Source: Caulobacteraceae bacterium (GTDB taxonomy: Bacteria > Pseudomonadota > Alphaproteobacteria > Caulobacterales > Caulobacteraceae). From it: 64,000 bases of DNA. Location of the stretch: assembly GCA_027452265.1 (NCBI GenBank), contig DAIDGR010000074.1:1-64000 (forward strand), given 5' to 3'. Below are positions 4 to 64,000 of the stretch, one piece after another. Numbering within the stretch: position 1 is the stretch's first letter; every line of letters starts with the position of its first letter. A model generated the notes under the pieces. It saw nothing but the letters and a program-made list of their open reading frames with translations. It was not told the origin of the DNA and made no database searches. A program made the position numbers and the translations under genes.

Positions 4-1054
4 GAGCGGTTTCCGATCATTCTGCATCATAGCCGGCGGCGGTGAAGTAGTTGGCGCATTCGGCTGGGGCGAAGGTGTCGACGAGGCGGCCGATGGTGGT
101 CCAGAGCCCCTCGACGGTTCGCTCGGACGCCTTCCGCAGGCCCGCCTTGAGCTTGGAGAAGGCCTTCTCGATGGGGTTGAAGTCGGGGCTGTAGGGCGGA
201 AGGAAGAGGAGGCTGGCTCCGGCGGCCTCGATCATCGCTCGCACCGTGGGTCCCTTGTGGCTGCCCAGGTTGTCCATGACGACGATGTCGCCGGCCTGAA
301 GCTCGGGGACGAGCACCCGCTCGACATAGACCTCGAAGACCTCCCGATTGACCGGGCCGTCGAAGACGAAGGGTGCGACCATGCCCGTCAGCCTCAGGCC
401 GGCGATGAAGGTGGTGGTCTTCCAGTGGCCGTGTGGCAGGCTCATCCGCAGCCGCTGACCGCGGGCGCAGCGACCGTGGGTCCTGGCCATCTTGGTGGAG
501 GCCCAGGTCTCGTCGATGAAGACCTGCCGCTCGGGATCGAGATCGAGCTGCCGCTCGAACCAGGCCTGCCGCTGCTTCAGGACGTCCGGACGGGCCTGCT
601 CGTCGGCGTGCCCGGTCTTTTTTTGAGCGTCACGCCGTGCCGGCGGAAGAAGCGCCACAGCGTCCCGATGCCGAACCTCAGCCCCCGCGCCGCCAGAGCC
701 GCCTGCAGTTCGTGCAGGGTCATGTCCGGTTCGCCCTCGATCAGACCCAGGATCGCCTCGGCGTGCGCCTCTATCCGGCCAGACCGTCGATCCCCGCCCA
801 GCGGGCCCGGCTTCACATGGCCCTGGCGGCGCTCCAGCGCGGGCCAGCGGCTCACGCTCGCCGCGCTCACCCCAAACCTCTGGCCCGCCTGGCGGTGCGA
901 CGCTCCCTCGGCCACCGCCCGAAGCACCCGCTCCCGAAGATCCAGCGAAAGAGCTTTGGACATGGCCGTCGGCCTCCGCTCCGACAGCCAGCTTGAATCA
1001 CTCAGTCGCTGATTTGGGAATCCCCTGCCGATTCACTCAGGCGGGAAACCGCCC
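4..1054 (-). mobile_element. IS630-family insertion sequence, complete
   Basis: The element is bounded by imperfect terminal inverted repeats: the left end reads gagcggtttcc and the right end, read inward, gggcggtttccc. Each end is flanked by TA (bases 2-3 and 1055-1056), the target duplicated by IS630/Tc1-type elements. Inside is one transposase in two overlapping frames on the minus strand, so the promoter end is the right end. That end carries short repeats (two copies of a TCACTCAG core and a gatttgggaatcc stretch) that could be transposase or host-factor sites. The element sits 22 bases past the stop codon of the neighbouring acylase gene. It looks intact and potentially mobile. Confidence 0.88.
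17..963 (-). CDS. IS630-family transposase, two frames joined by -1 frameshift
   Basis: The first frame (577-963) encodes an N-terminal helix-turn-helix beginning MSKALSLDLRERVLRAV, with a second DNA-binding helix region around SAASVSRW. The second frame (17-658) carries the DDE catalytic core: FIDETW (first Asp), VVMDNLGSHK (second Asp) and NPIEKAFSKLK (Glu). The frames overlap at a run of seven A on the coding strand (bases 618-624), in the context CTC AAA AAA AGA. A -1 slip there joins ...VTLKK to KTGHADEQ..., giving a protein of about 315 residues, the normal size for this family. All catalytic residues are present, so it should be functional if the frameshift occurs. The fusion by frameshifting is inferred from the sequence and known IS630 practice. 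Confidence 0.85.
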
Positions 1055-1077
1055 TAGGACGCGCCGACGGAGTCCGC

Positions 1078-62398: not shown

Positions 62399-63310
62399 AT
62401 GGATCGTCTCAAAGCGATCTCCATCTTCGTCGAGATCGCGGAACGCGGCAGCATCAGCAGCGCCGCCGAGGCGCTGAACGTTTCAAGGGCCATGGCCTCG
62501 CGGGCCCTGGCGGCGCTGGAGGCGTGGCTTGGGGCGCGGCTATTTCACCGCACGACCCGCCGCCTGCAACTGACCAGCGCCGGCGAGGCCGCCCTGGTGC
62601 GCTTTCGCGGCATGCTCGACCTAGAAGAAGATCTGCGAAGCCTCCTGGAGGGGTATGGCAGCGCCACGCGCGGGCATGTGCGCCTGACCTGCAGTCCGTC
62701 CCTGGCGCAGAGTATCCTTGCTGAAGCCGTGGCGGATTTTGTGCGCCTTCACCCAGGCGCCACCGTGGACCTGATGGGAACGGACCGCCCCATCGACCTC
62801 GTGGAAGAGCGGATCGACCTGGCGATCCGAATTTCCAACACCCTGGACGGTCACCTGATCGCCCGCCGGTTGGGAGTCTGTCGCTCCGTGCTCTGCGCCA
62901 CCCCCGCCTATCTCGAGCGCCGGGGAACGCCGGTTGTCCCAGAGGACTTGACCGGTCACGACTGCCTTTTGCACCAGTTCGTCAGCCCGGGCGTCTGGAC
63001 CTTGGGCAAGGGCGAGGCGCGGATCGCTGTTCCTGTTCGCGGACCTATCTGCGCCAATGAGGCCTCTGTGCTGTTGGCGGCGGTGGAGGCGGACGCGGGC
63101 ATAGGCCTGCTGCCCACCTACCTGGTTGGTCCTCGCTTGCGCTCGGGTGCGCTGACCGAGGTGCTGCCGGTCTATCCGGTCGAACCCATGGGAATCTATG
63201 GCGTTTACACCTCGCGGCGCCAGGCGCCCGGCGTGGTTCGTGCCTTGCTCGACTTTCTGGCCAATCGCCTGGGCGAGGATCGGACGGATCCCGATCCGCC
63301 CTCGGATTAG
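62399..63310 (+). CDS. LysR-family transcriptional regulator
   Basis: A 303-residue regulator: winged helix MDRLKAISIFVEIAERGSISSAAEALNVSRAMASRALAALEAWLGARLFHRTTRRLQLTSAG, then a periplasmic-binding-type effector domain from about residue 90 (HVRLTCSPSLAQSILAEAVADFVRLHPGATVDL). It belongs to the group with a short Asp-rich end, close to DsdC/CrgA-like regulators. Its TAG stop is at the very edge of the IS5-type element, formed by the target TA and the first G of the element, so the native C-terminus may have been longer. The target genes are unknown; ggt lies upstream on the same strand, 211 bp away. Confidence 0.88.
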   Translation: MDRLKAISIFVEIAERGSISSAAEALNVSRAMASRALAALEAWLGARLFHRTTRRLQLTSAGEAALVRFRGMLDLEEDLRSLLEGYGSATRGHVRLTCSPSLAQSILAEAVADFVRLHPGATVDLMGTDRPIDLVEERIDLAIRISNTLDGHLIARRLGVCRSVLCATPAYLERRGTPVVPEDLTGHDCLLHQFVSPGVWTLGKGEARIAVPVRGPICANEASVLLAAVEADAGIGLLPTYLVGPRLRSGALTEVLPVYPVEPMGIYGVYTSRRQAPGVVRALLDFLANRLGEDRTDPDPPSD

Positions 63311-64000
63311 GTTCTGTTGACGAAGTGGATTCCCAAATCGGCTGATCGCTGATTCAACGCTGTTCTTTGGGGAGAGCAGCGTTGGTTCGCGGTCTGATGT
63401 CGGACGAGGAGTGGGCGTTCTTCGCGCCGTTCGTGATCGAGACGGGTCCGCGTCGCGGCCGGCGGCCTCGGGATCACCGCCTGGTGCTGGACGGGGTGTT
63501 CTGGATCGCTCGGACGGGCTCGCCCTGGCGCGATCTGCACGACCACTTCGGCAAGTGGAGCTCGGTCTACCGGCAGTTCCGGCGCTGGACGCTGGCCGGG
63601 GTCTGGGACGTGCTGCTGGCCGCCCTCAATGACAGCGGCCAAGGCCAGGAGAGCGTCCAGATGATCGACTCGACCATCGTGCGGGCCCACCAGCATGCCG
63701 CTGGCGCCCAAAAAAAGCGGCAGGCCCTGAGGGCGAAGGTCTTGGCCGCTCGCGCGGTGGCTTCTCGACCAAGATCCATCTGAGAGCCAACGGCCTGGGC
63801 CTGCCGGTCGCCGCGGTGATCACCGGCGGCGAGGTCTCAGACGTCAAGGGCTACGACCCGATCATGGCCGAGCCCGGCCCTGAGCCCAAGGTGCTCCTGG
63901 GCGACAAGGGCTATGACGCCGACGCCATCCTGGAGGACCTTGAACACCGCGGCGTGGCCGCCGTCATTCCGCCCAAGCGGACGCGCAAGGTCCAGCGCCC
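63310..64000 (+). mobile_element. IS5-family (IS427-group) insertion sequence, left part
   Basis: The element begins near GGTTCTGTTGACGAAG directly after a TA in the LysR stop and runs off the window, so the right end and target duplication cannot be checked. The left end carries two GATTC sites and a 31-bp motif shared with the IS630 right end. Its two-frame transposase is typical of the IS427 group. Confidence 0.8.
63382..64000 (+). CDS. IS5-family transposase, two frames, cut by the window end
   Basis: The start is a TTG at 63382 with GGGGAGAG just ahead (ATG at 63397, MSDEEWAFFAPFV, is the alternative). The first frame has the IS427 N-terminus DEEWAFFAPFV, GRRPRDHRLVLDGVFWIARTGSPWRDL and the first catalytic Asp in QMIDSTIVRAHQHAAG. 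At 63710-63716 a run of seven A gives the slippery heptamer A AAA AAG. A -1 shift there enters frame 3, AAGPEGEGLGRSRGGFSTKIHLRANG ... LLGDKGYDAD (second Asp), which stays open to the window end. Without the shift the first frame ends at 63783. The catalytic Glu lies beyond the window. Confidence 0.85.

Follow-up and report, generated by a model that had tools for sequence, protein, structure and literature searches.

Two insertion sequences of unrelated families and the motif they share

The window—the whole 64,000-nucleotide stretch of DNA analysed here—holds an IS630-family element at its start and the 5' part of an IS5-family element at its end (Table 1). Assignment of the former rests on PF01710 and PF13358 matches above the cut-off, a TA dinucleotide at both ends and the termini AGAGCGGTTTCC and GGAAACCGCCCT. 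The latter was recognized by PF13340, perfect 18-bp terminal repeats and the presence of an ORF B; it extends past the window to contig position 64169, and we take it to be a member of the IS427-like group. A preliminary description of this DNA had regarded the two elements as members of unrelated families, and their domain content bears this out, with HTH_Tnp_IS630 and DDE_3 in one and DUF4096 of IS4/5 transposases in the other. In both elements, seven consecutive A residues occupy the coding strand at the ORF A/ORF B overlap, an arrangement typical of programmed frameshifting. The 92,577-bp contig starts right at the IS630 end, one base outside the flanking TA, and the assembly therefore probably broke at a repeated element.

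Table 1. Positions of the features of the IS630 and IS5 elements in the window.
Feature	Position	Strand	Basis or remark
TA flanking the IS630 element	2-3 and 1055-1056		
IS630-family element	4..1054	-	about 1.05 kb; sequence, Pfam; full length to 1054 by matching ends
IS630 ORF B, DDE_3 catalytic part of the transposase	17..658	-	ORF list; PF13358, E=3.8e-33
IS630 ORF A (transposase helix-turn-helix part)	577..963	-	ORF list; PF01710/PF13384
T7 run (A7 on the coding strand) in the IS630 ORF A/ORF B overlap	618-624		sequence
Predicted hairpin, IS630	957..994	-	between site C and start codon; ribosome-binding site in loop; RNA fold, -19.4 kcal/mol
GANTC site C, IS630	995..999	-	GATTC within GTGATTCAAG
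GANTC site B, IS630	1018..1022	-	GATTC within GGGATTCCC; 23 bp upstream of site C
GANTC site A, IS630	1030..1034	-	GAATC on the coding strand
IS5-family element, 5' part	63310..64000	+	termini GGTTCTGTTGACGAAGTG ... CACTTCGTCAACAGAACC; PF13340
IS5 left terminal inverted repeat	63310..63327	+	motif sites directly inside
GANTC site B, IS5	63328..63332	+	GATTC
GANTC site C, IS5	63351..63355	+	GATTC; 23 bp from site B
Predicted hairpin, IS5	63356..63383	+	directly after site C; encloses GGGGAG ribosome-binding region; RNA fold
IS5 ORF A (start codon uncertain)	63367..63783	+	ORF list; DUF4096, E=5.9e-26
A7 run in IS5	63710-63716	+	sequence; likely frameshift into ORF B

Positions 993-1023 of the forward strand read TTGAATCACTCAGTCGCTGATTTGGGAATCC, and the reverse complement of positions 63327-63357 reads TTGAATCAGCGATCAGCCGATTTGGGAATCC. 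The two copies agree at 21 of 21 fixed positions—blocks of 8 and 13 bases at equal spacing—and at 24 of 31 positions overall, exactly as first described. Their placement was also correctly called: in both elements, the motif sits immediately inward of the end adjoining the first transposase ORF. With up to three mismatches allowed, the pattern occurred twice in the window and in none of 100 shuffles, and a search of the whole genome likewise found it two times. A chance match between two copies was considered and rejected, because both lie near one consensus, GGGATTCCC-N14-GTGATTCAA, which they fit at 24 and 22 of its 26 positions. All the GANTC sites previously listed were recovered, those of IS630 starting at 995, 1018 and 1030 and those of IS5 at 63328 and 63351. 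No GANTC was found in the remainder of the IS630 element (positions 1-950 searched), and the IS5 element has a further one, GACTC at 63667, inside the coding sequence. GANTC is rare throughout the window, with 117 sites seen against 291 expected from dinucleotide shuffles, a depletion of about 2.5-fold.

A class-wide consensus with a rigid spacing

For a broader comparison, we examined the regions upstream of ORF A in elements chosen by protein similarity only. When each family was anchored on its own site C, IS630 and IS5 elements were found to share the consensus GGGATTCCC, 14 further bases and GTGATTCAA, and it is near certain that the two families carry a common promoter-end element. When the flank profile was trained on the opposite family, site C was read as GATTC in 31 of 42 IS630 and 21 of 38 IS5 elements, and the central base was T in every GANTC case so located (31/31 and 21/21). 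More generally, this base is almost always T at both sites B and C, with the flanking bases conserved; we looked at both sites for the free N of GANTC and found no such signature. Site B of IS630 loses its A more often than its TT, the TTC being retained. The fixed T and the variation at site B therefore point to selection on GATTC together with its flanks, beyond GANTC alone.

The presence of the motif in other copies had been proposed as a check, and it was borne out in this protein-selected set: the exact 23-bp GANTC pair occurs in about half of the elements (48% of IS630, 55% of IS5), at least one GANTC in nearly all of them, and two or more in 95% of IS630 and 61% of IS5 elements. A third site, GAATC, is usual in IS630, 11-12 bp further out, with 26 of 41 anchored elements carrying GAATC at site A. 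Spacing was also scanned across 289 alphaproteobacterial genomes with the pattern GGATTC-N{5,34}-TGATTCAA. Among the matches listed, 36 distinct sequences from 25 genomes stood at 23 bp start-to-start, against roughly two for any other spacing; nearly all of the 23-bp matches examined were IS ends. A 23-bp GATTC pair was likewise observed in the elements L126, L127, L129 and L128, whose ORFs start with SLTGVTPDQF or MSHPISLRGDFNAPA. In the IS5 element L343, site C reads GACTC, as against GATTC in its close relatives L341 and L342, so that GANTC is preserved.

Near-confinement of the motif to the promoter ends of insertion sequences

GTDB genomes were scanned with the 18 fixed consensus bases, which returned at least 115 stretches with 116 matches among those listed; as the scan sought the motif itself, it gives the location of the motif and not its frequency among insertion sequences. 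At least 107 of the 116 matches listed belong to ends of IS630 or IS5 elements: BLAST identified a transposase of one of these families downstream of 65, and another 42 combine an IS-end signature with a contig ending within 120 bp. The other 9 listed matches are less certain, 5 of them bearing the IS-end signature. All titled records among the matches listed are alphaproteobacterial or metagenome-assembled genomes of unclassified Proteobacteria or bacterium, and no named class other than Alphaproteobacteria appeared among them.

Methylase sites are enriched at the transposase-promoter end over the rest of the element. Promoter ends contain about 25 GANTC per kb, against 0.65 per kb in ORF A of IS630 and 1.44 per kb in ORF A of IS5, and GANTC ranks first among the 16 palindromic XYNY'X' words in the promoter ends of both families. 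A comparison of promoter with distal ends, the other check proposed at the outset, gave a strong difference: full-length IS630 elements (n=21) have 53 GANTC in the first 90 bp vs 7 in the last 90 bp, and full-length IS5 elements (n=29) have 53 vs 17. The promoter end is the richer one in 38 of the 50 full-length elements and the poorer one in 2. Host DNA flanking the elements (668 kb) showed no preference for a 23-bp distance, with three such pairs and no GATTC-GATTC pair, and no comparable enrichment was seen in the IS21, IS91, IS6, IS110, IS3 and ISAs1 elements of four alphaproteobacterial plasmids. One Agrobacterium Ti plasmid stretch was excluded from all analyses. A lone GATTC was noted near the transposase starts of IS256, IS1182 and IS1634 elements (L323, 18708-19982; L324, 14605-15939; L326, 20190-21923), too few to be set against background, and before another IS5 group on alphaproteobacterial plasmids, again in too few cases to judge.

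GANTC sites follow CcrM inside and outside the class

The source genome encodes CcrM with a RAMA domain, and GcrA, so that the cognate methylase is present in the host of the window. Across hosts, 29 of 29 IS5 ends from CcrM-positive genomes had a GANTC no more than 72 bp from ORF A, compared with 2 of 14 from genomes with no CcrM and no GcrA detected (Fisher p=6e-9, the elements being only partly independent and the contrast resting on six negative genomes, the majority of them probably related small-genome lineages). Most elements come from GcrA-bearing genomes, and hosts with CcrM in which GcrA was not detected retain GANTC in 8 of 8 IS5 and 4 of 4 IS630 ends. Some IS630 elements keep their sites in hosts where CcrM was not detected (L010, L015, L020, L026, L032). 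Several of these assemblies are incomplete and encode GcrA, and the CcrM gene may therefore have been missed in them. Only two IS630 copies come from hosts with neither CcrM nor GcrA found, and both keep the sites. In a single genome without detected CcrM, the IS5 elements L339 and L340 retain site B and read GATCC at site C, against GATTC in their relatives—as if site C had decayed after loss of CcrM.

Relatives of the IS5 element in other Pseudomonadota, many of which have the same kind of terminal repeat, contain 4.4 GANTC per kb and the 23-bp pair in 0 of 17 cases (Fisher p=4e-5 against alphaproteobacterial IS5). The pair is absent from IS5 relatives in gamma-, beta-, Gram-positive and other non-alphaproteobacterial hosts, among them the named copies of Acinetobacter, Burkholderia, Streptomyces, Rhodococcus, Lactiplantibacillus and Microbacterium; an Aureimonas copy reads GGATTCCCAAATC...CTGATTCAAGG. 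IS630 is too rare in the rest of the phylum to form a control set, and the single gammaproteobacterial copy, on a Pseudomonas plasmid, showed neither GANTC nor the 23-bp pair. The IS5 protein tree, built from few columns and with many open forks, implies at least 15 changes of host type, with GANTC going along. Of the five well-supported independent pairs on this tree, an average of 4.4 show GANTC going with the host, and none among the tested hosts shows the opposite (p 0.06-0.25, the supported pairs being too few for significance).

Predicted hairpins downstream of site C

In both families, a stem-loop that encloses the ribosome-binding site is predicted right after GATTCAA. Its mean z is about -2.9 in IS630 (33 elements folded) and -3.4 in IS5, where only six elements were folded and some segments were truncated at a second GATTCA. 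The IS630 Shine-Dalgarno sequence falls mostly within the hairpin loop, rather than in the stem. Removal of the first seven bases weakens this hairpin from -14.9 to -8.5 kcal/mol. Such a hairpin would form on transcripts reading through from outside, and a transcript starting just past site C would miss part of its 5' arm; by analogy, it may protect against read-through transcription.

A proposed methylation-sensitive transposase promoter and its alternatives

The best reading of these data, and in our judgement a reasonably probable one, is that both families would have arrived by convergence at a transposase promoter controlled by CcrM methylation. The shared element would then be the transposase promoter region of both families, and in hosts with CcrM, selection would have favoured CcrM sites at fixed places, making transcription dependent on the methylation state. 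GATTC at site C would overlap or adjoin the -10 region, and the copy at site B, 23 bp upstream, lies at the distance that separates -35 and -10 hexamers with a 17-bp spacer; sites B and C could therefore be located at -35 and -10. Neither GATTC resembles the usual promoter hexamers, and the 23-bp distance is stricter than in ordinary promoters. Full methylation by CcrM would lower promoter activity. Once the replication fork had passed, the sites would stay hemimethylated up to the point, late in the cycle, at which CcrM acts, opening a short period in which two copies of the locus are present. The arrangement suggests that these elements may time their transposition to DNA replication. The further proposition that such timing is class-wide and convergent, with unrelated families and several IS5 clades having gained the architecture and losing it where CcrM is missing, is one to which we would give even chances.

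The fixed T and the conserved flanks imply either that methylation acts on a promoter that needs these bases, or that a protein reads the sequence. The second option—a sequence-specific protein or an unusual promoter reading GGGATTCCC-N14-GTGATTCAA, with the GANTC match incidental to methylation—would also account for the rigid 23-bp spacing in both families, and for a site B that varies at the A of GANTC with its TTC intact. A host regulator should, however, have host targets, whereas the element is almost confined to IS ends; its occurrence tracks CcrM inside and outside the class, and IS630 usually carries a third, differently placed GANTC. We regard this alternative as the less probable one, if the most substantial of those considered, and prefer methylation, given that the shared sequence is restricted to mobile elements and goes with CcrM. 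The earlier suggestion of a convergent use of CcrM or a host factor has stood in part: the motif is common to the GANTC-rich promoter ends of two families, follows CcrM hosts and persists in hosts without GcrA, but selection acts on more than the bare GANTC, extending to the central T, the flanks and the spacing.

GcrA, recruited to methylated GANTC and activating the transposase promoter in S phase, is an unlikely mediator. In several Alphaproteobacteria, GcrA binding to GANTC is methylation-dependent (PMC3667746), and GcrA-bearing genomes hold most of the elements, yet GANTC is kept in all 12 of the 12 elements sampled from CcrM-positive genomes without detected GcrA, and neither window site, GGATTCC or TGATTCA, fits the extended GcrA-activation motif YGAKTCG (PMC7987155). 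We consider it scarcely more probable that one element captured the motif from the other, or that a single ancient promoter exchange was kept by descent—if anything, the odds are longer still. Such an event would agree with a consensus that reaches beyond GANTC and with a motif found in two families rather than in all; against it, many separate clades of both families have the motif, IS5 clades outside the class are without it, gains or losses follow the host, and the similarity ends at the motif, the terminal repeats and hairpins being different. The original notion of a scrap of one element carried by the other is likewise disfavoured, as the motif recurs class-wide in numerous clades of IS630 and of IS5; recombination within this genome was set aside as well, both copies simply lying near the class-wide consensus. 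Finally, the subterminal position of the GATTC repeats would suit transposase-binding sites required for transposition. The repeats, however, occupy one end only, are common to unrelated transposases and are missing from non-alphaproteobacterial relatives with the same terminal repeats, which makes this explanation highly improbable.

Relation to known systems and implications

Transposition timed to replication has been described in detail for enterobacterial elements under Dam control, and a structured mRNA leader is known for IS10 and IS50, to which the leader hairpins predicted in both IS630 and IS5 are comparable. Dam sites are present in the transposase promoters of IS10, IS50 and IS903, whose activity Dam methylation lowers (PMC9296519, PMC4265352), and the elements described here resemble these in that their transposase promoter has recognition sites for an orphan adenine methylase, with host methylation marking replication. 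They differ in the methylase (CcrM, recognizing GANTC), in their alphaproteobacterial hosts, in the two sites 23 bp apart and in the families concerned, IS630 and a different IS5 group.

The nearest reported system to the shared element appears to be the CIR repeats, Caulobacter intergenic repeats of about 110 bp associated with CcrM (Chen and Shapiro 2003, as summarised in PMC2229807). By that summary, both are repeated alphaproteobacterial sequences with conserved GANTC, but the CIR repeats have no transposase, whereas the present sites lie in the promoter ends of full insertion sequences and do not qualify as CIR repeats. A likeness also exists to host promoters regulated through GANTC, such as ctrA P1 and gcrA of A. 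tumefaciens (PMC4287350, PMC11514494), which have GANTC in or near the promoter and change activity upon methylation; in the gcrA promoter, with six GANTC, methylation lowers activity even in CcrM-expressing E. coli (PMC11514494). In contrast to these promoters, GGGATTCCC-N14-GTGATTCAA is found almost solely in IS ends, and the 23-bp pair shows no excess in flanking host DNA. The open-licence literature searched yielded no account of GANTC within transposase promoters, which is weak evidence of novelty, and the main text of the Caulobacter and Agrobacterium CcrM papers covered contains no mention of transposons.

The consensus GGGATTCCC-N14-GTGATTCAA provides a cheap sequence sign of IS ends in draft genomes. 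If the proposed control is correct, two unrelated methylases and unrelated transposons would have converged on one design, which would point to a general selection for transposing just after replication. CcrM would gain a role in genome stability, and these ends would offer natural promoters with which to report hemimethylation in Caulobacter, rhizobia and their relatives.
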